The notes beneath the pieces were generated by a model. It searched no databases. It was given only the letters and a program-made list of their open reading frames with translations, and was not told where the DNA came from. Position numbers and translations under genes: made by a program. This document shows positions 6,001-53,883 of a DNA stretch of 64,000 bases, piece by piece. Source of the DNA: Diphasiastrum complanatum (Eukaryota > Streptophyta > Lycopodiopsida > Lycopodiales > Lycopodiaceae); NCBI GenBank assembly GCA_029204225.1, contig CM055097.1:47614617-47678616 (forward strand), given 5' to 3'. Every line of letters begins with the position of its first letter. The stretch's first letter is position 1.

Positions 6001-9000
6001 CTGTGTCATCAGTATGAATCAAGTGAAGCATGAAATTAGAACAATCACTAGCACAATGAAACACAATTTTCTTGGTCTGATGTAGCACTCTCAAATGAAG
6101 TGCATTGGCGAAGAAAAATAGGTCACATATTACCTACTTGAAAGGACTACCTAGACTGTACTGGAGGGGCTTGAGTAGGCTGTGTACTATAATTATACAC
6201 CAGATGGGTAAGAAGCTTGGCCAAGAATGAAGGTATACATTTTGTTTTTCCATGTAGATGGATGAAAAAATTGAACATCAAGTTTATCTGAACAAGCAAT
6301 AAACTGAAATCATAGTTTCACAAAAACGCGTTTCTGGGAAAAAAACGTTTTTAGAAATGCGTTTCTGGATCCAGAATTGCCGGAGAAAAAATAAAACAGA
6401 TATTCATGATACTGCATTGCCTTGCAGGTTATACTAAACTGTGCCTTTCTTAGTTCTCCCTCAAAGAAACTCATTTCTCTATCAGTAAAAGCTACCAAAC
6501 GAGGACCCATCAATGGTATTCATAGTTTCCAATTAAAGTTTCCAGCCTCTCATGAGGGTTGGGGCACCCACGACTCAAGGTCTCCTTTGTAGAACTGCGG
6601 TTGGATCCTAGATGTTGTGACAGTGGTTCAGATGGGATTTAAATGATCGACATATTTTTTAGGTTCCAAATGCAGCTAATTAAGGCCCTAACTACCAAAA
6701 CAATCGAAAAAGCCAATAAACCCTTACTAGACATCCTAACTCTTCACTATTTAACATAATCAATGTTGTCAACATTCGATTGAGTCATGATAGCTTTTGA
6801 TTGAATAGCCACATCAAGTTTTTGATGATGATCCTGCAGCAAAGGTTGCAATCACATCAATGGGCTTCTCCCTTAAGGTCTTGTGATTAGGTTAACTTGA
6901 TGTCGAGGTTAGTTGTGTTGTAGCTGAACCTGAGAATGGTAACTAGCAAGAATGAGAGTACTCCAGAAGTTTAAGCCAACTGGCATCATAGGCCTCATTG
7001 GACCCAATAGTAGCTCTAAATGAATTGACAGAAAAGATATCAAAAGTAACACGACAAGCCATTCTAGACTTTTATCATTGGCAGAATCCAACAACGATTG
7101 ATGCACCTAAACTGGAGCACATTGTACCCGAAACATTCGGCAACCTACATACATGTATTGCCCTTAATTAATGCTCAGAAACATGTTTCTAGAAACGCAA
7201 TGCAACTATGATTGAAATAATGCCCGAGAAATGAAATCAGAAAATGAAATGTGAGAGACCCAAAATTCTATGTGCTCTAGAACTTGCCCAACCTGATTCA
7301 AATATTTGGTCACTTCTTTCCCACCAATATGATAGTAGCAAGCTGAATTTCCAACAAATTGATGTTTTGGTACATTTTAAAATATATTTACACCTCCAAA
7401 GAACCTGGAAATGATAGTTAATCATACTCTATACCAAGAATCTTGTATAAGTGAGGATACATATGCTAAATCTCAATTGATTGGTTTTCACAACAGTTAC
7501 CGTGGAAAACCGTACTGCTTAGTTGCATAGGTTGATGTTTTGCATAAGCAGTTATATGTGAATGAAAATTTAGTTAAAGACTATAAAAAAGAGGCCTTTT
7601 TTTAGTCCAAGAGGGCTTTATCTAGGCCACCAATTCAAATTATGCCATAACATCAATCGTTTGCCTTTTGACTTTGATGTTTGTCTAAAGAGAATAGTAA
7701 AAACATTTTTTTGCTATATGATATTGTAATCTTAGATGTTGAGAACTCTTCTAGCCAAAGAGCATCACATCCCCCCCTTATGGATCATCGAGACTCGTCA
7801 ACTTCCCCATGAAAGTTTTGGCAAGATATTTATCGTCTAGTTTAAATTCACCCACAACAATGCCAAACCTTTCATAATGAACTTCATAATCCAAATTCAA
7901 ATGCTTCAAGAGATGGAGACTTCTAAGGATCTTATGTAGGAAATTGGCAAGTTGGTTATTTAATCTTTCATATTTTTCTTATATATGACCTTTCTTTCAA
8001 GCATAGAAGGCCACTCCAACATCATTTGTATTTATACTTCCTTTTTTCTTTCATAGTGAGTAATGACAATGTTGGTAATTTGCCAATGACTAGCAAATTC
8101 CATGTTCGCTCATTTTTGACAACCAAAACAATGATGTGAACATATTTGGGAACTTTTGTGGACTTATTTAAAGAAATCAAGTTTTGTACTTTTTGTCTTT
8201 TGCAATCTCATGAGTGTTGACATTTTCTTTTCTTGTATTTCTTTTCTAGAAGCTTTTCCTTCTTTGTGTCATTTGTAGATATTGTCTTCTCATTCTTGTC
8301 TAACTCAATGTATAAGGCAGACATGATTTATTTTTTGAATTTCTTTGGAAGGATCATCACTTTGTTGTAAATGAAAAAGTTTTTTGCACTTTGACATGAG
8401 AATTAGCTAATAGGATGTGTTTCTTACCCAACATTTGTTAGCCCAATCAAGTGATGTGTTTTATTTCTTCATTTGTTAGCCCAAGCAAGTGGTTTGTTTT
8501 ATTTCTTCTTTTGCCAAGGCCATATATCTATAAAGAAAAGTTTGAATACAGTAAGATCATCTCTAAGTATCTCCTGTTGCTCTTCCCTGACAAAGATCGA
8601 AATTGACAAAAAGCCAAAATTTATCCTATTTTTGAAGGCTAGGCTTTGTAAGTAGAGGAGTTTCAAAATGTTATACTTTCTTAGATGTTTCATGCTAGTC
8701 ATACGTATTTGTGTATATCAGTTAGCAACCATGTAGCCTCACCACGCTCTACTTTTTTTTTTTTTTGCCTAAACATTATGTGATCCATGATTTGCACTCA
8801 ATTAGCATTTTTGCTAGCTTGTTCTAGTAAGGTCTATCAATCTTTATCATTCTAAACTCAAAGTATGATAGCAATAGGTGTTTGCTTTTTTAATTTTCAA
8901 TAGCCTTTAATGCTAAACGATGACATTTGTCCAGGATGTTAGCACTCCGGCTCTATGTTCCTTAATTACCTCGCTTCCCTCCATTGTACTACAGAAAATG

Positions 9001-16467: not shown

Positions 16468-16745
16468 CCCACCTCGAAAAAGGAGAAAGCAAGCACAACC
16501 CAAGCGGGCACAACCTAAGCCTCGGTCTCCCAACTCTTCACCCTCACTCCTCCCTTGTCATAGAGATGTGAAAACTACCTCGCGAATTTGACCATGGGTT
16601 GAGAGACCTCCAACAACCCCCTGGTCTTGATATCCCCACTTCTCCTTCTCAACATTCGGAAAATTTAAATACAATGGTGGATAAGATTATATCTGATTTT
16701 GAAGATGTCAAAAAATTGTGGGATATTGGTGGGAGTATCCATTGA
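16468..16745 (+). pseudogene. Fragment of H3-like gene: C-terminal basic tail only
   Basis: The frame gives PPRKRRKQAQPKRAQPKPRS followed by a Ser/Pro stretch. After a one-base shift it continues LDIPTSPSQHSENLNTMVDK, then an IISDF helix-like end and GGSIH before TGA (16743-16745). The same text is found at 36018-36290 on the minus strand, where it follows a histone fold. Here the fold is missing and replaced by copia integrase sequence. The codon that is TAG in the 36-kb copy reads CAA here, so the tail was once open. Confidence 0.75.
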
Positions 16746-16790
16746 TATCGGATTAGTAGAGATATGATAGAAACAGAACTTTGATATCAA

Positions 16791-18099
16791 GTTCGAAATG
16801 TGTAATAGCAGTGGAAGTTTGCAAAGGATGGTTGCAGATCATAAGTGCGTCAGTTACCAGCAAAAGGATAAAGATGAATGAATAGTAGCAATGCGCAATA
16901 GAACAAAAAACAAAAGTGCGGACAAAATCCACTCTGATTGATAGAAAATGAGTACAAGAGCTTGAAGCATAAGCACGAGACAGTGTAGCGCTAAAACTGG
17001 CTTTAGCTGAAAATCATTGCATACTCAGCCTAATCAGCATGATCACTGACTGAAAGATACAGACTTTATTTGCATGTCTTACAGTTCAGTGATCAATACT
17101 TTAAATCTACTTAATTAATTAGAGCCACCTTGTAGTAGGTAGCCATCTTTGTAAGTACTAAAGTCTATGTACAAGTAGGTGGACTGTCAATGTTGTCCTT
17201 GAAGTCGTCTGACAGTGCATGGATCGACTTTTCCTTGATGAGGGAGTCTAGTCGAGTAAGTTGATGAAAAGTCGACGAAGTCGTCGGGCAAGTCGAGCAA
17301 GTCGATGGAGTTGGTGTTGAAGTAGATGTCAAGTAAGTTGATGTCGATGGAGTCAATTGTCAATGTAAGTTGGGTGATGATGGAATGTCGATGAAGTCGA
17401 GTTGTCGAGTGAGTCGAATAAGTCGATGAGATTGGTTGTCGATGGAGTCGAGTTGTCGATGATGTCGAGTGAGTCGATGAAGTTGGTTGTTGAGTGAGTC
17501 GATGAAGTCGATGATGTCGAGTTGATGGAATAAGTTGAGTATATACATGGAGAAGTCGAAGTCGGACTTCGGACTTCAATGACTTCGAAGTCGATGGAGT
17601 CGGACTTTGACAAATTTTTCAGGATGCTCATGACCGAATGGGGATCTTCATATTTAGCATGTCGTTAAATTGCCATAAAATTTGTCGTAAACCAATGACA
17701 CTTCCTTGATTTGCACTTTTTCTCTAAGGTAGTGATACATGATTTTGATATGTTTGCTTTGAGAGTGAAATCTCGGATTTAGAAATAGTGCAATTGTGCT
17801 TTGATTATCACAATATATGGTTGTTATAACTGAGCAAGGTCGATATCTACAAGCAGGTTCCTTAGCCAAATTGCCTCCTTGGTAGCATTTGTGCTATGTA
17901 TTTCGATTTTGTTGATGATAATGCTGTTGAGGTCTGTTTTCGGCTATTCCATGAGATTGGGCCTTGATTGAATAAGAATACAAATCCAGAAGTTGATCCT
18001 CTAGTGTCGATATCTCCTTCCCAATCTGCATCTGTATAATTGGTATGGCCAACTCCTCAGGACATGGAATAGTCCTAATATGGTAGATCGGCCCTCCAG
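16791..18099 (-). mobile_element. Copia family B: RNase H end and 3' LTR (minus)
   Basis: RNase H (18050-17650) reads TDADWEGDIDT and SGFVFLFNQGPISW, then YCDNQSTIALFLNPRFHSQS. The LTR follows (17642 down to 16791), and a primer-site-like TTGATATCAAAGTTCTG (16774-16790) is adjacent. Compared with the plus copy at 33.0-36.0 kb, about 60 bp with the polypurine tract and LTR start are deleted. The LTR body at 17180-17590 is a TCGAC-rich minisatellite. The matching RT part lies at 25301-26255, displaced by insertions. Confidence 0.85.
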
Positions 18100-33071: not shown

Positions 33072-35989
33072 TGCTTATGCTCAAATCGAATTCCGATCCT
33101 AGAGTCGACACCAGTTCCGAACTCAAGATTGATCAAAAAATTGACACAGACTACGACAATGAGTCAGACCCTCAACAAGTCAAATCCTTCAGAGGATTGA
33201 AGTTCAATCCAGAAGATCAAAATGATCTAGATAGCCTCCATCCCAATTTATGGATGATCCAGCCTGCTACTTTGTGCAAGAACCATGCATTGTATTAGAG
33301 GCATTGTCAAATCCAGATGTTGATCAATGGAAAGCCGCAATGGACACAAAATTTGATTCTCTAATTGAGAATCAAACATGGACTGTAACTAAGCTTCCAA
33401 AGGACCGAAATTTGATTCCATGCAAATGGATATTCAACGTGAAGTATGATGCTGAAGGAAGACTAAATCGATACAAAGCCAGATTGGTCTCCAAGCCTTC
33501 TCTCATATTCCAGATCTAGATTATTCCGAGACCTTTATCCCTGTTGTAACAAGCATACTTCGATTTGACAACTACTCTCCTTTGTAGTTGCAACTGATCT
33601 CGAAGTCCACAAAATGGATGTCCAAACAACTTTTCTGAAACAGACTATCGAAGAAGAGATCTACATGTCACAACTAGAGGGATACGAGCTCAAGGGTAAG
33701 GAGCATCTTGTCTACAAAATTCACAAGGCTGTGTATGGTTTGAAACAGTCACCAAGAGCCTTTTTTTAGAAAGTCAATGGATTTCTAATCAAGAATGGTT
33801 TTGTTTCAAGCACGACAGACTCAATGTCTATTTCAAGTCTGTATCGAATTCCTTCATTATCATCACTCTTTATATAGATGATACATTATTGTTTAGTAAC
33901 AATTTGAATTTATTGACAAATACAAAATGCATGCTAGCACAGGAATACAAGATGATTGATATGGGTCCAGCCCAATATTGTCTCAGAATCCAGATTCATC
34001 GAAATCGATCAAGTAGACAAATTTATATCAGTCAACAATGATATCTCACTAATGTGCTGGAAAAGTATGGAATGACCAACTGCAAATCGAGCTACTTTTC
34101 ACTTGGCCTTGGTATGAAATTATCAAAGGAACAATGTCCTCAAACCGAGACAGAAAAGGAGGAAATGAAACAGTATCCATTTTATTCCATTATCGGCTCA
34201 CTGGTGTATGCAACGCTCTGCACTCGACCTGACCTGGCATACTCTATCAGTTCACTCAGCCAGTTCCTATCCAGGGCCAAGCATTGGAAAGCACTCATAA
34301 AGATCATGAAGTATATCCAAGCAACAAAACATCTATGCATCTGTTATGGAGGCAACCAATCTGCCAACATTCTTGAAGATTATACAGATGCAGATTGGGA
34401 AGGAGATATCGACACCAGAAGATCGACTTCTGGATTTGTATTCTTATTCAATCAAGGCCCAATCTCATGGAATAGCCGAAAATAGACCTCGGTAGCATTA
34501 TCATCAATTGAATTGGAATACATAGTTGCCACAAATGCTACCAAGGAGGCAATTTGGCTAAGGAACTTGCTTGCAGATATCGACCTTGCTCAGTTATAAC
34601 AACCATATATTGTGATAATCAAAGCACAATTGCACTATCTCTAAATCTGAGATTTCACTCTCGAAGCAAACATATCAAAATCATGTATCACTACCTTAGA
34701 GAAAAAGTGCAAAGCAAGGAAGTGTCATTAGTTTACTACAGGTCAGATTTTATGGCAACATCAGATTTAATGACATGCTAAGTATGAAGATCCAAGTTTT
34801 TTAAGATCCACATTACGGAGGAGTGTTAGATTTTAATGCTCAGGTCCAAAATCCATTCCGTCATGAGCATCTTGAAAAATCTGTCGAAGTCCGACTCCAT
34901 CGACTTCGAAGTCATCGAAGTCCGAAGTATGACTTCATCGACTTCGACTTCTCCATGTATATACTCAAATTACTCCATCAACTCGACATCTTTGACATCA
35001 TCGACTTCACCGACTCACTCAACAACCAACTCCATTGACTCACTCGACATCAACTCGACATCACCGACTCACTCGACATCATCGACAACTCGACTCCATC
35101 AACAACCAACCTCATCGACTTACTCGACTCACTCGACAACTCGACTTCATCGACATTCCATCGTCACCCGACTTACATTGACAATTCACTCCATCGACTT
35201 ATCCGACTCCATCGACATCGACTTCAACACCAACTCCATCAATTCCATCCCACCTTAGTTGATTTGTCCGTTGACTTCATCGACTTTTTATCAACTGACT
35301 CGACTTACTAGACTCCCTCATCAACAAAAAGTCGATCCATGCACTGTCAGACAACTTCAAGGACAACACTGATAGCTTTCATCCTCAAAATAAACGTATT
35401 TGAATTTTCTTCACTCTTTTGAAAACAAGAAAAGATTTGTCTTCTTAGAGTCAACACTCTAGAAGTAGACTTGGATTCATAAAGCTTCTTCAATGAATCC
35501 CAAGCATCCTTAGATGAAGTACTCTTACCAACCTCCTTGAGAAGCTCATTGGTAACATTCATCTTGATAATGTGTAGAGCCCTTTTGGCCCCCTTATCAT
35601 ACCTCATTTGACAAAGATGGCTATCTGCTGCAAGGTGGCTCTAGTTAATTAAGTAGATCCAAAGTACTGATCACTAAACTGTAAGACATGTAAATAAAGT
35701 CTGTATCTTTCACTCAATGATCATGCTGATTAGGCTGAGTATGCAATGATTTTCAGCTAAAGCCAGTTTTAGCGCTACATTATCTCGCGCTTATGCCTCA
35801 GGCTCTTGTACTCAGTTTCTATCAATCAGAGTGCATCTTGTCCACACTTCTGTTTTTTGTTCTATTGCACATTGCTATTGTTCATTCATCTTGATCCTTT
35901 TGCTGGTAATTGACACACTTCTGATCCACAACTATCCTTTGCAAACTTCCGCTGCTATTACACATTTCGAACTTGATATCAGAGTTCTG
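33040..35989 (+). mobile_element. Copia family B: integrase end, RT, RNase H, LTR, primer-like site (plus)
   Basis: Order: integrase end FGCIAYAQ (33060), RT start SLIENQTWTVTKLPKDRN (33350), VHKMDVQTTFLKQTIEEE, a damaged YVDD region (TLYIDDTLLFSNN, 33865), and RNase H YTDADWEGDIDTRRSTSGFV (34380) to YCDNQSTIALSLN. The polypurine tract GGAGGAG is at 34817-34823. The LTR starts TGTTAGATTTT at 34824 and runs to about 35972. TTGATATCAGAGTTCTG (35973-35989) looks like an initiator-Met primer site. A primer site after what should be a 3' LTR is unusual. Frameshifts make the element inactive. Confidence 0.88.
34870..35345. repeat. TCGAC-rich minisatellite inside LTR B
   Basis: Dozens of short units built from CATCGACTC, ACTCGAC and TCGACTTC fill about 480 bp of the LTR. 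The minus copy of the LTR has the same array at 17180-17590. Ser/Thr-rich open frames here are repeat artefacts. Confidence 0.9.
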
Positions 35990-36017: not shown

Positions 36018-36718
36018 TCAATGGATACTCCCACCAGTATTCCACAGTTTTTTGATAGCTGCAACATCAGATATAATCTTATCCACCACTGTATTTAGAT
36101 CCTCCGAATGTTGAGAAGGAGAAGTGGGGATATCAAGCCAGGGGTTGTTGGAGGGGTCTCAACCCATGGAATTCCCGAGCTAGTTGCCAGATCTCTATTC
36201 AAGGGAGGAGGCGAGGGTGAAGAGCTAGGAGACCGTGGCTTGGGTTTTGCCCGCTTGGGCTATGCTTGCTTTCTCCTTTTTCGAGGTGGGACAGGCCCCC
36301 GGGCAAGAGGCACTTGCCTTTGTGTAAAGCCAGACTTAAAAATGCTATCATAGGTGTTCCGATGCCTCATGACAAGAAACATGTCTTTGGGCATCAGTGT
36401 CACCCTGTTGGCATGTATCAAGCACAAAATCGAATCCTCAATCATTTTGTCCTGGAAGTCCTCGTATGCAGTATGAAGTGCCTCCAAAGTAGTGATATTC
36501 CACCTCACTACATAGGGCAAATGAGTGGTCATATCCTGTGCGACCTCCCTCACAGCCCAGTAGAAAGCTGCTTTCAGGATCAAAAGCTTAGTGCTCCTTT
36601 GTACAGCTCTAATGTCCCTCAACCATGGATGGCGAGGTCTTCCGCGTCTTTGTGGACGAATGGGGCAGGCTGGCGCGACGAAGCTAGTCAACCTAGCAGC
36701 TTGTTTCGTTCGATCCAT
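36018..36718 (-). CDS. Divergent histone-H3-like protein with C-terminal basic tail
   Basis: ATG at 36718; 152 codons are open to a TAG at 36257-36259. The N terminus MDRTKQAARLTS mirrors H3 ARTKQTARKS but has Leu for Lys9. The N tail is about 16 residues shorter than H3 and lacks the other modified lysines. The fold follows: alphaN/alpha1 RDIRAVQRSTKLLI and AVREVAQD (35-62), a longer loop 1 (63-76), alpha2 LEALHTAYEDFQDKMIED (78-95, about 3 residues longer than H3), then CLIHANRVTLMPKDM (99-113), nearly identical to H3. A tail begins FTQRQVPLARGPVPPRKRRK. After the TAG the same frame, then a one-base shift, continues PKRAKPKPRSPSSSPSPPP to IISDVAAIKKLW and GGSIH before TGA at 36018. Either a 152-aa protein or a pseudogene in its tail. 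It could be a chromatin protein related to CENH3, but the termini argue for a separate H3-like family. Confidence 0.8.
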
Positions 36719-37000
36719 TGAGGTCGGATATCTCTACGATGCGAGAGAGGGCTACTATGGCGTAGAATAGCAGAATGGTTTGCATGATGGTGATACTGGC
36801 TGAGAAAGAAGGATATCTCTACGATGCGAGAAAAGGGCTACTATAGTGGAGAATGGTAGGATCATTCGTGTGATGGCAATAATGGTCAGTAAAGGCTGAT
36901 ATCGCTACGACACGAGGAAGTGGCAGTGAATTTACTTTTGTATTGAATTTGAACACGTCTGTAAAACCATTGAACTAGTTGAATGATGTAACTATGTGTA
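36719..37000 (-). promoter_or_regulatory. Upstream region of H3-like gene with ~85-bp direct repeats
   Basis: GGATATCTCTACGATGCGAG occurs at 36726 and 36810, and a diverged third copy lies near 36898. Each is followed by GAGGGCTACTAT-like or similar DNA. The repeats lie directly before the ATG (36718) of the minus-strand gene, so they would be in its leader or promoter. No clear TATA box is seen. Confidence 0.5.
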
Positions 37001-38139
37001 TTCTGATGAAATGTTGCACTAGCTTGGCAATGTGATTTCTCCATTCCTTGTAATGACCAAATACTTAGACTGCCATAAGCTTTTGCAAAAAATGATACAT
37101 GATGTCATAAAATGTGCTGCAATATCAGAGATACAAGCATTGGCATATTAATCACTTTAAATTATTATATGTGCAATGAAATTATAATTCTAAGAGTTAC
37201 ATTGAAAAGAGATTTACCATATAATGCGTAATATGATCTGCACCCCAGGCGCCTTTAACTGCATCCACAAAAATTGTTGATTTCTCAATTAGTAGGACAT
37301 CAACATCAAACAATATATCTTTTCTGAGCAATTTACCATGTTGTCAGGCTTTCTCCATACTTCAACTTTTTTAAGCCTTGTTGTTCCTTTTTCTTCAAAA
37401 TCTTGTGTGGCAGAAAGTACATCTTTCCAAATCAAGTACTAGATTTTGGTCAGTTTTCAGGAATGATTTGATAAGAAACGACGAGCTTTGGATCCTCATG
37501 TGCTTGGTTTGAAAAGGATGTTTCCCGTTATTCCCGAAAGCTTCTCGTCCTTTTGTATTTTAACGTGTCCTTTATGAAGACCCACTTTTGATAGATCTTC
37601 CTCCAATCGAGCTATTGCTTGTTTGGCTAATGACTCTGGCTTAGTATTCCAAGCAAACCAAATATCAAGGTGTATCAATCTTTCTATAATTCTTACTCTG
37701 ACTGTACCTGCAAGTACGGTACGTCAAAATAGAGTGATTTCCGTGGAGAAAGTGTTTGGAGTGCGCCAAAAGTGATTATCATTGGGCACGTAGTTGGGAG
37801 TTGGTGACAAGGAGCATTTCGGAAGGCGACGCTGATTTGGCTTTCAATTTGGAGGAAAAGTGGCAGGTGGCCTGGTAAGCCAAACATTGCAGGTCATTAT
37901 TTTTGAATTCTGCCATCACCGTTGTTTCACAGTCACTAAGTTTGACGGTATTACATGTGCTTAGCTCTAGATTTATTGGGTCGTTTCTTTTACGAGCCCT
38001 TGTTGAGTTCTTAAGCAATTTCTCCTTGTACTTGAGGATGATGGTGAATATACAGTTCATGGAGAGGTATTTCGTCTTGTCTTGTGTTGATGCACTTGAT
38101 GATGTGCTATAGTGATTGATTCAGTCGAGTTTTAAATCA
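37001..38139. other. Unassigned region with coherent minus-strand ORFs
   Basis: Minus-strand frames at 37678-37496 (AKQAIARLEEDLSKVGLHKG) and 38060-37779 look protein-like and share the H3-like gene's strand, but I do not recognise them. They could be exons of a decayed host gene or retroelement text. Confidence 0.25.
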
Positions 38140-39104: not shown

Positions 39105-39500
39105 TTGCAATCCATGAGCAATGGTGGTGCTAAGATGTATGTCACATTTATTGATGACTTTAGTAGATTTACTTGGGTATATCTTCTAAAGATTTGATTG
39201 TTTTGTGAAGTTCAAGAATGCAAGGGAGAACCAATCCAACACCAAGATCAAGTGCTTGAGGAGTGACAATGGTGATGAGTACATTTCTACCAAATTCAAA
39301 GCCTTTTGTGATGTACATGGAATTAAGAAGAAGCTACCAAGCCCAAGGACTCCACAACAAAATGGAGTGGCTGAGAAGAAGAATCGCTCTTTGTGTGAAG
39401 GTGTCAAAGGCATGAGATTAACATTAGAGGAGTTCCAAACCCCAAAAGGGTTGTCTAAGAAATGCCACATAAAGCTATGGGTTGATGGAAGTTTATAGCC
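39105..39500 (+). mobile_element. Copia integrase fragment
   Basis: Reads GGAKMYVTFIDDFSRFTWVY, then KIKCLRSDNGDEYISTKFKA and RTPQQNGVAEKKNRSLCEGV. It keeps the D and D of the DDE core but ends before the C-terminal part. It meets the minus-strand copia piece head to head at about 39100. Confidence 0.85.
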
Positions 39501-39834
39501 AATCGATCCAAGCTTAATGCAACATCCAAATTTTAGATTAGTCACACAACTCGTACTATTTTTGTGTAAAGGACACAATGGTTTATTGGGTTATTGTGAA
39601 AAATTGAAAAGTTATGGCATTAGTAACTCAATGAAATTGTTTGAAAAATATGTTGAATGGTTTGCTTATTGACTAAGGGCTGGAAGTTCAGGGCTGGAAA
39701 TTCTCTAAAGAGCAGTGTCGTTGAACAATAAAGGAGAAGAAACATATGAGAGGTTATTCATATCATTCATTATCGCATCTCTCATGGATGTGATGGTCTG
39801 CACCAAACCGAACATCACATTTGCAGTCAACTCA

Positions 39835-49890: not shown

Positions 49891-50581
49891 TTAGATGAAG
49901 ATTTGGAAGAGGAAGAAGAAGGGGAAGAAGAGGCCACTGGCTTTAGACTAGCCCTCACTTTCTTTGGAGGGTTTGAGGATCTTTTCTTTTTTACAACAAT
50001 ATGTTGAACGTTTACTGGTAGCCTCTTTGGTTAAACATGCTTCCTTTTTCTCCCTGAAGTGGTGGTGGAGCAGAAGTTGTTGGTGGAGCAAAAGCTATTA
50101 GACGAAAATTTTGGGCAAACGTATCGTATGCATCCCTCATATGAAAAATCGACACAAAATCTTTAAGTATTATTGTTACTCTTTTTGTATGTACAACAAC
50201 AACCATACATTCTGAAAAGAATTTTATTTGAAAATCCTCATAAGCATTGTGTAGTGCTTCAACTGTAGTCACAACCTCACCTCACATCTGTTGAGATCTC
50301 TTTGGTCACCCCTCTTAATGCATCTTCACCCTGCTTAATGCATCTTTGCATGTGAGCCTTTGGGATCAAGAAGTTCATTGTTTTCTGAAGTTTCCTGATA
50401 TCTTTTAGCCATGTTGGGACTCTAGGATCTGACCCACTCTCCTTGGTGTTGCTTGCTATCTAGGAGATGAAGGTGGTGGCGGAGGAGGAGGTGTAGGTGG
50501 TGGTGGTACTCCTTGCCCTACAACAGCGTGTAAAGATACTCCTCCTGAGCTAAGTCTTGCAATCTACTTTGTACGTGCCAT
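49890..50581 (-). pseudogene. Second H3-like gene, broken
   Basis: ATG at 50581-50579 gives MARTK, a TAG stop, then IARLSSGG. This is the H3 N terminus, again with Leu for Lys9. A Pro-rich insert follows (two runs of prolines, about 50480-50460). In a second frame come PTWLKDIRKLQKTMNFLIPK and VTKEISTDVR, with an 18-bp internal duplication. A third frame (50272-50012) holds TTVEALHNAYEDFQIKFFSE, VVVVHTKRVTIILKDF and DAYDTFAQNF. The tail shifts into VVKKKRSSNPPKKVRASLKP then a Ser/Lys run, H1-like in composition. Helix 2 has the same extra length as the 36-kb copy. At least two stops and three shifts make it a pseudogene. Confidence 0.8.
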
Positions 50582-50926: not shown

Positions 50927-51309
50927 AGGAGGAGGGATGGGACGCATAGCCAATCATTAATGCCCTTCATTAAAGTTTGTAATCATCATTGTATATGTTT
51001 CAGATCATGTCAGTCTCGAAAATGACATCCATAAATTCTAGGATCTGGTGGAAATTTGTAATATTTTTTTAATATTTTTTGCTACGTGTCATATGGCGAA
51101 TATCTTGAATTTTGCACCCATAAATTAACAAGTTGGTTTATGAGAATCATTTTCAACTGGTTGATCTTCTTCAAGATAAACTTGGTCATGTAATCACAAC
51201 CCCTCATATAGATATACAATTGTAGTTTTGTTCATTTCTCAAATCTTGTACATGCCCAACCATCTTCCAAACAAAATCATGATAGGAAATACTCAAAATT
51301 ATCAAAAAA
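50927..51309. other. Unassigned flank
   Basis: AT-rich; no feature I can support. Confidence 0.4.
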
Positions 51310-51786
51310 ATGACTCACTGTAGTATTCACAATAAAAAGTTTCATCTTCTTATGAAAGACATGGCATTTATTTTTTTCATCTCTGTTGAAGTTTTAAAAG
51401 ATAAGCCCGTTGGTTCATCTTCATTAGGTTTACCTACCATCCCTTCATTTGTTCCAATGAATGTAGATGAAGATGACGTTGATATAGGTATTGAAGCTGA
51501 AGCTGAAATGACATCTGAATATGAGCAGACCACTTGTTGCTCAATAATTTTGTCCGATTTTAAATCTTCAGAAATTTCTTTTAGGGAGAAAAATTTACTG
51601 GATCTTCTTGTATATATTATAAATAATGATCATTATATGTTCAATGATATTGAAGATGTTTTTGATTTTAGAAAAAATAAAATATTCTCAATTTTTTCGA
51701 AAGAATTGTTAGACTTTTTAGATATTATTGATTATGATTATGATGATTTCGAGCCCAAGATTGATATTGTGACGGATGATAACTAG
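51310..51786 (+). CDS. Hypothetical acidic ORF, up to 158 aa
   Basis: The open frame is strongly acidic in its second half (VDEDDVDIGIEAEAEM, then FLDIIDYDYDDFEPKIDIV). No domain is recognised, and the start is uncertain (ATGs at 51310, 51352 and 51361). No splice or promoter evidence is clear. It may be an exon of a host gene or chance coding in AT-rich DNA. Confidence 0.3.
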   Translation: MTHCSIHNKKFHLLMKDMAFIFFISVEVLKDKPVGSSSLGLPTIPSFVPMNVDEDDVDIGIEAEAEMTSEYEQTTCCSIILSDFKSSEISFREKNLLDLLVYIINNDHYMFNDIEDVFDFRKNKIFSIFSKELLDFLDIIDYDYDDFEPKIDIVTDDN

Positions 51787-52878
51787 AAATCTGGCAATGA
51801 GACATTGGATGCCATGATAAAAAACTACAAAGCTTATTCAGAAACCTTATCGAGTGAAGAAGAATTTTTTGGAGTTTGAGAAAATGTATCCACTAAGATT
51901 CATCATTAACTAGTGAGAACTGAAGAGTCTAGTGGTCTATTTTTTTGTAATTGTGATTTTCATTTTTTAATCTAAATAAATCTCTTATTGCGCTTCTTTA
52001 CAGAATACAATTATAGTAGAATCCTTTGTTAAGACGTGGAGGTCTTCGCAAGGGATCATTAGTTATTGGGCACAAGGAGACATCCCTTGCCCACTATTTA
52101 GTTTTTTTTGTAAATAACAAAATTTGTATATATCATACAATTTATAGTCCATTCGCTGCAACTATTATAACGACAATTAGACCATTGTCTGTTTGCTTAG
52201 GAGGCCACAATTATGCCAAAGGAACATTCAATTTTTTTTGTTAAGAGGGATCTAGCTATTAAAATACTAAGTTATGTCTCTAAAAATACCACAGAAAGAT
52301 CATCTTCAATGGCCCTTTATTCGGGATATATAGACATGAGCAAAAAGAAAAATATATAGTTTTTAGATCCATGTGAAAGGAGATTGTTCCTTCATGACAA
52401 TACCATGCATCTCAAACTTGGAGATGATGAAAATTGAAACTAAAATAAATTATATATACGTTATATATATCTCTCCTTTTTGATGAGTTTGAATGCTTTC
52501 TAAAAGACCACCATCCATTAATGGTTTAGGTGGAAGATTAGAGGCGATATCATTACCCTCTTTCTCAATCAAAGAATTAATTCCTCCGGATTCTACCATA
52601 GTAGAGAGCTTCTGATCAAGGTTTTTTATGGACATTCAAAACTGTATGAAATGTAGCACAAGTTCAAAAAATAATAGATTGCACTGGTTTCTGCCTTTTG
52701 CAATGTTTGTAGATTTTTTTGTTGAATGTAATATTCGTAGAACAACGACAATGTTTATTTGTAGGATCAATGGGATAAAAAGAGTGATGGCAATATCGAG
52801 TGCATAGTTAATAGATCGTCAATGAAATTTAGATATCATATAGAAAAACAAATGCTTTCTTTAACATTTTTATTATAG
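51787..52878. other. Unassigned stretch
   Basis: One minus ORF at 52635-52450 (LDQKLSTMVESGGINSLIEK) reads protein-like but is unrecognised. No repeats or LTR ends are seen. Confidence 0.3.
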
Positions 52879-53095
52879 AAGATGGTCCAAAGTTGGCAAT
52901 GAATGGAAAGCATTGGATTAAGATTTTACATTGAATCATCAAGATCAAATAGAAATCCAAGTGAAGCAAAATGATTCTACTATTACAACAATTGAGGTGG
53001 AGGAAGATTGGACACTGAATCACATTCGATCAAAGCTTACTTTGCTGCAACATCGTATTCCTGAATACTTTTGTTTTCAAGTCAATGAGAGATTG
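52879..53095 (+). pseudogene. Ubiquitin-like domain exon relic
   Basis: An acceptor TTATTATAG precedes 52879 and a donor GTATGT follows 53095. The frame reads RWSKVGNEWKALD, one TAA, then DQIEIQVKQNDSTITTIEVE, EDWTLNHIRSKL and IPEYFCFQVNERL. The pattern of two beta strands, an acidic turn and a helix fits the ubiquitin-like fold (compare the TITLEVE and VKAKI positions of ubiquitin). Neighbouring exons were not found, and the internal stop argues for a pseudogene. Fold assignment is inference. Confidence 0.4.
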
Positions 53096-53883
53096 GTATG
53101 TGTATGTGTGTTTTCTTTAATACACATTTGAACTGACTTTCAATGAGTTTATTTAAACTTATTTCAATTTTTTTACTAGTTTGCGCTTAAATTTAAAAGT
53201 ATCTGAATGTTGGTATCGTTTAACAAGTTTCTTTGATGTACAAGTAAGACCAAGTTAAGAAAATTGTATACAGTGCAAGAATTTGAATAGAACGGTAGAA
53301 ATTGTCGAAACCGCATAAACATTGGGATGGTAGACGTGCAACAATGTACCTTTCAAAAAAAGGAATAGAAAACTATCTCAAATGATTTCAAGATTTCATC
53401 GAACATATAGTATTCAATATTTTGAAAAATGTACATTGTTAGCAAAATCGAAATAAAATATTCGTGGCTTTCAATAATAGCCCACTTTCTATTTGCCTAT
53501 CTATTCTATGCATCAACACGTGATCATATCTTATTGACAAATGTGAAAAATGCAAAAATAAGCTTGGTAGAAGCCAAAAATCTTGTATATAGGATGATTA
53601 CACATGTGTGGAGCCTGTTCCCACGTGTGAAAATAGTGTACTTGTCATGTACCATAATCATATAGGCTGTACATATGATTTAATTCAAGTTCTAGTGGCT
53701 AAAAAGGCCAAAAACTAGTTTTCTAGACATATGACACATGGCATCAATCTATTGATTGCATGAGCCACATCCTTTAGATAGGTGTCACATCCCATGTGTA
53801 GAGGACAGCTCACATGTGTGGAATAAGTTGAAGTAGACGAATTTTGACTTCTAGAAGATTTTCAAGTAGATCTCCATATAGAA

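Follow-up and report, generated by a model that had tools for sequence, protein, structure and literature searches.

A diverged histone H3 gene carried by a probable multi-gene DNA transposon family in the lycophyte Diphasiastrum complanatum

Introduction

The locus described here raises the question of what an H3-like reading frame with a strongly diverged middle and its own basic C-terminal tail could be: a variant of the host, or something else. The frame lies in a stretch of 64,000 nucleotides of Diphasiastrum complanatum (assembly GCA_029204225.1, contig CM055097.1, positions 47,614,617 to 47,678,616 of the forward strand), which we refer to as the window. An original prediction, made from the letters alone, had proposed a divergent H3 of unusual architecture. 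We followed this prediction through profile and structure comparisons, searches of the genome (1.74 Gb, 5176 contigs), and analyses of the relatives that these searches returned.

Results

The window ORF is a cut-off copy of a diverged H3 gene

The motifs MDRTKQAAR, VREVAQD, RDIRAVQRSTKLLI and IHANRVTLMPKDM, which had suggested an H3-like protein, were all found in the minus-strand ORF (Table 1). The Pfam profile PF00125 (Histone) matched the ORF with an E-value of 6.7e-18 and a score of 65.6 bits, for which the cut-off is 26.4, and the best PDB sequence matches by phmmer were H3 chains, from 3.3e-18. These matches go beyond chance and thus identify the ORF, at the sequence level, as a strongly diverged H3 homologue. 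PF00125 also matched the H3-like proteins of two related lineages, A2 (8.5e-25) and B (2.1e-25). The reported dissimilarity of the middle comes down mainly to a loop 1 longer by four residues and a diverged α2 helix.

The frame does extend beyond the α3 helix as predicted, whereas the short basic PPRKRRK tail did not hold up as its end. Intact family-A copies continue for about 200 further residues, and the window frame is cut by a TAG after KRRKQA, at which four other copies (L014, L015, L018 and L020) also stop. The lower bound of 36018 proposed for the feature covers the homologous sequence behind this TAG, which reaches about 36062. Judged by comparison with its relatives, the window ORF is a decayed, cut-off copy of an element-borne gene and not a stand-alone histone variant.

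Structure prediction gave a mixed picture. The AlphaFold model of the window ORF with 13 relatives has four helices in H3 order (31-42, 49-66, 75-103 and 110-128), but its mean pLDDT is only 56. The best 36 Foldseek rows were nucleosome or histone chains, but with an E-value of 3.2e-3 at best, TMq of about 0.29 and rmsd of 8-20 Å. The best VIA hit had a Z of 4.4 at rmsd 7.9, next to 4.2 for an unrelated chain, a range described as common in the VIA notes. The predicted model agrees with the H3 fold by helix order, which is no proof of packing. A model of the full-length A1 protein (pLDDT 35) was set aside.

Table 1. Remains of H3-bearing elements in the window
Feature	Position	Strand	Basis or remark
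Second partial copy, element 3' part	16468..17641	+	blastn, 80-90% identical to 34.85-36.29 kb
Post-TAG stretch homologous to start of C-terminal extension in full-length copies	36062..36259	-	blastn/tblastn to C12 element
H3-like ORF, 152 aa	36260..36718	-	ATG start, TAG end; shortened copy of family-A H3-like gene
Histone-fold region, aa 20-119	36362..36661	-	Pfam PF00125, E 6.7e-18
H3 N-terminal tail tip MDRTKQAAR	36692..36718	-	Usual family form MARTKQTAR; K4 present, position 9 = Leu
Transposase-like fragment, third piece	36907..37122	-	tblastn E 4e-23, query lineage-C protein
Transposase-like fragment, second piece	37248..37696	-	tblastn E 8e-53, 79-83% identity
Left terminal repeat (element 1-46) joined to element 794-1001	39422..39675	+	blastn
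Second H3-like pseudogene, lineage D	50015..50578	-	MARTK*IARLSSGG start, Pro-rich tail; tail tip read
ORF2 fragments, second element	51197..52431	+	tblastn E 2e-21 and 1e-30
ORF4 fragments, family-A type	52520..53128	+	75-87% identity; tblastn E 2e-43, 9e-44 (two longest pieces)
Family-A element near right end (element 7585-7818)	53308..53532	-	blastn E 5e-58

The H3-like gene is repeated beside ordinary host histones

The window protein has at least 150 genomic copies (the best 150 of 6458 first-look candidates), all with E-values of 4.3e-61 or lower and 74-100% identical to the window ORF, many of them with stops. The matches listed are spread over many chromosomes and contigs. A transposase-like protein (at least 150 copies, the best 150 of 11906 candidates) and a further protein, ORF2 (at least 138 copies, 138 scored of 8015 candidates), are likewise repeated, all these counts being lower bounds. 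Canonical H3, by comparison, has 13 full-length matches at 97-99% identity; among the best 150 of 6076 candidates for this query, the 13 genes and high-identity pieces are followed by H3-like stretches at 44-57%. A single-copy variant of the host was rejected as an explanation, because the protein is repeated and canonical H3 has 13 full-length genes of its own. The genome's chalcone-synthase-like protein has its best PDB match in 3AWJ, from the clubmoss Huperzia serrata (E 1.5e-202, against 2.2e-169 for the runner-up).

The distribution of the copies is uneven in places. The region C3:18.5-21.5 Mb holds 12 of the 40 listed left-end matches and may be pericentromeric or the product of a local burst. 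Near-identical or clustered copies at C12:51.66 and 54.00 Mb, C1:5.47 and 63.9 Mb, and C2 21.37-21.67 Mb look like segmental duplications or assembly duplicates. At locus L027 (5394-9627), a unit of about 1.06 kb from the right half of the element stands four times in tandem at 96-98%.

For H4, 135 candidates gave 78 matches, including 17 full-length ones that are all canonical (98-100%), so that the partner of the element H3 would be host H4. A full-length non-canonical H4 did not turn up among these 17, nor was an H4 amplified on the scale of the H3-like gene seen among the 78 matches of the genome search. The other 61 matches are partial, at 42-80% identity, and 56 contain a stop; some cluster on C6, C21 and C22, where partial H4-like stretches at 42-50% mostly carry TAG stops. 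A search for the host CENH3 returned no row that stood out among the best 150 of 5529 candidates.

Family-A elements have terminal inverted repeats and four genes

Alignment of extended family-A copies, the family in which the terminal ends were mapped, revealed a left end CATTA[C/G]AGGAGTTCCAAGG (CATTA[C/G]AGGAGTT form) and a right end AACTCCT[C/A]TAATG, inverted relative to the left one. The sequences flanking these terminal inverted repeats differ from copy to copy. The distance from end to end is 8455 bp on C12, 9024 bp on C1, 9692 bp on C7 and about 9.9 kb on C9; a fifth pair, on C22, of which the ends were read, is separated by 16,122 bp. No target-site duplication was recognisable in these five left/right pairs (C1, C7, C9, C12 and C22), and one guessed left end, on C6, was absent at the expected place.

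Between the ends, transposase-like exons (+) are followed by ORF2 (-), H3 (+) and ORF4 (-). Family-A elements thus combine short terminal inverted repeats with transposase-like and H3-like genes on one strand and ORF2 and ORF4 on the other. By eye, the transposase-like protein contains an Asp in VLKLDESEV, another in WHLAGDLKSL with CLYC behind it, and further on a Glu in GMEKSHW, a layout that we read as that of a candidate DDE-type enzyme. The transposase-like, ORF2 and ORF4 proteins tested had no Pfam, PDB or PHROG match of note, so that the label "transposase" rests on these motifs and on linkage to the terminal repeats.

The genes travel together beyond the aligned copies. On five chromosomes, which hold 32 of the 150 scored H3 matches, 20 of the 32 have an ORF2 match within 6 kb, in all 20 cases upstream and on the opposite strand. 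Six of the 32 have a transposase match nearby among the matches listed, all six upstream and on the same strand, and the remaining H3 matches have no element neighbour nearby among the matches listed. On the same chromosomes, 9 of 41 ORF2 matches have a transposase nearby among the matches listed, many copies being partial. Taken from repeats, gene content and copy number, the element is probably a multi-gene DNA transposon ("jumping gene") family.

A copia retrotransposon gene was also considered, because a copia gag fragment lies at 35347-35607 of the window. The second window copy (16468..17641) is without the stretch corresponding to 35376-35610, which overlaps this fragment, and self-comparison of three 20-kb copies found no long direct repeats inside the family-A element; both argue against a copia origin, although the near-identical locus L002 does contain the stretch with the fragment. 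Between 34850 and 35300, the window is of low complexity with imperfect GTCGA-type repeats. Elsewhere in the window, the left terminal repeat joined to an inner segment (Table 1) is the end of a copy with an internal deletion, possibly a non-autonomous derivative, and the lineage-D pseudogene adjoins ORF2 and ORF4 fragments.

At least four lineages carry the gene

The full-length copies that had been sought in the same genome were found as intact relatives in at least four readable lineages: A1, to which the window belongs, A2 (L094, L095 and L087), C, and B. Intact proteins measure 337-364 aa in A and C, and about 410 aa in B. A1 and A2 proteins start with MARTKQTARLT[ST]F and continue through the fold into a C-terminal extension of about 200 aa. 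Lineage C (L072, L090, L092 and others) has the same layout with a start of MDR[RK]KQTRRD. In lineage B (L071 and ten others), MA[RW]TKQTARDP opens a long Ser/Arg- and Pro-rich N-terminal tail with the fold at the end of the protein. Family-A copies have a candidate second H3 exon behind the 357-aa frame, which was dropped as unsupported in lineage C (E 1.6).

Family-A proteins matched lineage C at tblastn E-values of 6e-21 to 1e-81; lineage B was matched by the H3 and ORF4 of A (2e-9 to 2e-23) and by a transposase piece of C (5e-10). In comparison with A, lineage C carries H3, an ORF2 at 31-45% identity and a transposase that reaches 54-71% in its first two pieces. In lineage B the order differs, with ORF4 (29-35%), H3, a transposase fragment 40-52% identical to the lineage-C protein, and ORFs that resemble ORF2 by eye. 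Since the gene set, whole or partial, recurs in lineages A, B and C, the H3 gene looks like a core gene, and these comparisons make it very probable that it is a conserved part of the element.

A tree of 23 rows, among them yeast and CENH3 sequences and the uncropped window row, separated the 16 element H3 sequences from the others by a branch with values of 80/89 (not starred). Canonical H3 stands apart at 97/95, and the CENH3 rows fall without resolution.

The H3 fold is conserved while copies decay

Between the window and 15 family-A copies, the H3 region has a dS of 0.44-0.72 and a dN of 0.09-0.11, giving dN/dS ratios of 0.14-0.25. Between A1 and A2, synonymous differences are saturated (pS 0.79-0.88) with pN at 0.23-0.25, and within lineage C the ratios are 0.12-0.19. 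Close A1 pairs have higher H3 ratios (0.35 and 0.62), as expected of copies decaying after insertion. The C-terminal part is looser, with ratios of 0.23-0.42 for A1 against A2 (dS above 2), 0.43-0.58 within C and 0.70 in the single A1-C pair; for pairs that involve the window such ratios are meaningless, since homology is lost after about 36062. These values, like the tail counts below, leave out the near-identical loci L002, L007, L011 and L019, whereas the very alike L015 and L018 were both kept. The substitution pattern indicates that the H3 fold is under purifying selection, and selection has preserved the protein while several element lineages diverged from one another.

The decay itself is patterned. 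Against the column majority of the 15 family-A copies, counted without the window row and on element sequence only, the C-to-T rate is 0.103 at CG and 0.030 at CHH, with 0.099-0.123 for the three CHG types. Apart from columns with a majority stop, 11 of 19 premature stops are CAG-to-TAG changes. C-to-T change at CG and CHG is the footprint of CG/CHG methylation, and the host thus appears to methylate these elements. In plants, CHG methylation depends on H3K9me2.

The tail keeps K4 and lacks K9

All 25 tabulated A and C copies (20 A1, two A2 and three C) retain K4. It is the sole tail lysine in 21 of them, the other four having one extra lysine, at index 3, 3, 8 or 22. Five further A2/C copies also keep K4, four with a stop right after it, which brings A and C to 30 of 30. 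In lineage B, K4 is present in 11 of 11 copies, and position 9 is Asp in ten and Gly in one. Together with the lineage-D copy of the window, K4 occurs in 42 of 42 readable tips (A/C 30, B 11, D 1) and a lysine at position 9 in none of the 42, the residue there being Leu, Asp or Gly. These counts omit L093 (B-type fold), whose fetched stretch has no readable tip, and take L061 and L072, which are the same locus, once. In the two B copies read, the long tail has later lysines, which start at index 33 or 92. Past position 9, the tails are unalignable with canonical H3, so that a K27-type loss is not inferable by alignment.

In the fold, we compared 32 positions chosen for their established roles in H4 pairing, the H3-H3 interface or DNA contact. 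Thirteen of them (42, 52, 83, 105, 106, 113, 116, 117, 118, 123, 126, 129 and 131) equal host H3 in all five representatives, including the contact-type residues R83, H113, R116, T118, D123, L126 and R129; over the whole fold region, this holds for 21 of 104 positions. The other 19 of the 32 differ in at least one representative. R63 is Pro or Leu in all five (Pro in four), R49 is changed in B and C, R69 is Trp and K115 is Asn in the window, R72 is Lys in B, and K122 is Gln in A2. Compared with canonical H3, loop 1 is longer by four residues in A1 and by one in C, and of equal length in A2 and B.

Discussion

What could a transposon gain from an H3 of its own? The best explanation, to which we give about an even chance on sequence grounds, is an element H3 that is incorporated together with host H4 into nucleosomes yet offers no K9 for marking. 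Taken by itself, incorporation into nucleosomes is rather probable; we infer it from finding no full-length non-canonical H4 and from the persisting core of contact residues. The expressed protein would pair with host H4, and the H3-H4 pairs would be built into nucleosomes, probably on element DNA. With K4, without K9 and, in A and C, with hardly any other lysine in the tail, such nucleosomes could not carry K9 methylation. They would not feed into DNA-methylation silencing, and the chromatin of the element would stay open, allowing expression or transposition. The C-terminal extension (A and C) or long N-terminal tail (B) might add targeting. That the protein shields element chromatin from K9-based silencing in this way is speculative, and we propose it tentatively. 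We are no more confident of the broader idea that a plant transposon clade builds its own chromatin, with a replacement H3 that keeps K4, sheds K9 and, in two lineages, nearly all other tail lysines, and escapes the loop between H3K9me2 and CHG methylation.

Alternatively, the protein may not be mainly a nucleosome subunit. The ARTKQTAR tip could bind host proteins that read the H3 tip, or else the transposase or ORF4 of the element itself, so that a silencing factor is sequestered or integration is steered, the fold serving for dimerisation or nuclear import. In A1, A2 and B the tip has indeed been preserved best while the rest of the tail was replaced, and a scaffold role would suit both the long B tail and the C-terminal extensions found in A and C. 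However, several residues involved in H4 pairing, in the H3-H3 interface and in contacts with DNA have likewise persisted while synonymous sites reached saturation, and lineage C has altered the tip to DR[RK]KQTRR. We consider this alternative less likely than the best explanation. Descent from CENH3, with a role in directing elements to centromeric chromatin or interfering with it, seems improbable to us. Resemblance to plant CENH3 lies in SMLC, RVTLM, the V-R-W of loop 1 and the Pro that four of the five representatives have at R63, and S. pombe Cnp1 matched the family profile at 7.4e-34, about as well as canonical H3 chains did (5.2e-34 and 1.8e-33). Yet the tree leaves the CENH3 rows without resolution, loop 1 is lengthened in A1 and C but not in A2 or B, and the copies listed lie on many chromosomes and contigs. 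A CENH3 origin was not adopted, as the residues are suggestive only and tree and profile scores do not decide.

Pieces of captured genes are common in plant DNA transposons, and many copies here are broken, as would be the case if a host H3 fragment had been captured by chance and had no function. This explanation, already disfavoured, is the least probable one, given the low dN/dS (0.14-0.25), the conserved protein between subfamilies with saturated synonymous change, and the presence of the H3 gene in lineages with rearranged gene order. Hardly more probable is an integrated large virus or virus-derived element instead of a transposon. Several genes on both strands with a captured histone might fit a virus, and single viral H3s have been described (PMC9145170), but the terminal inverted repeats do not, nor do the dispersed copies, at least 150 in number. 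In addition, no relatives were found in IMG/VR with one transposase protein (in a search for close relatives) or with the H3 alignment, and no polymerase or capsid match was found among the ORFs tested.

The element H3 shares with canonical H3 (H3.1/H3.3) the histone fold profile, the ARTKQTAR tip and core nucleosome-contact residues. It differs in the replaced tail after residue 8 with the loss of K9, in the long C- or N-terminal extension, and in being element-borne in at least 150 copies. Plant CENH3/CENP-A has in common with some lineages Pro at 63, RW in loop 1 and SMLC/RVTLM-type residues, whereas the equal loop 1 of A2 and B sets the element H3 apart and the tree gives no support. The plant "H3-like" variants are diverged H3 proteins as well, but they are described as host genes (PMC4357034), whereas here the gene shares a terminal-repeat element with three others. 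Viral histones, such as the bracovirus H4 and single viral H3s (PMC9145170), are also carried by selfish or virus-derived elements and possibly alter host chromatin; no viral hallmark was found here, and the histone belongs to a terminal-repeat element of high copy number. By description, KolobokP composite-like DNA transposons can be set alongside as eukaryotic DNA transposons with an extra protein, which accompanies the DDD/E transposase as a homing endonuclease (PMC9587614), as opposed to H3 here. The original prediction knew of no such family, and the literature matches listed contain nothing like it and no description of an element-encoded core histone. These matches mostly leave out subscription papers and preprints, and such partial coverage makes a prior description, for example in a repeat database, possible.

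Transposons are normally the substrate of histone-based silencing; here, a core histone is itself encoded, as a conserved gene, by what are probably transposons. The elements form a probable multi-gene transposon family that no profile match assigns to a superfamily, and new H3 variants of the host might arise from them. Should the protein be built into nucleosomes, it would be a natural H3 without the K9 site in which K4 stayed under selection, and it would offer a direct test of whether K9 on the element's own chromatin is what silencing needs. Should the proposed escape from K9-based silencing be true, the arms race with the host would be played inside the nucleosome.
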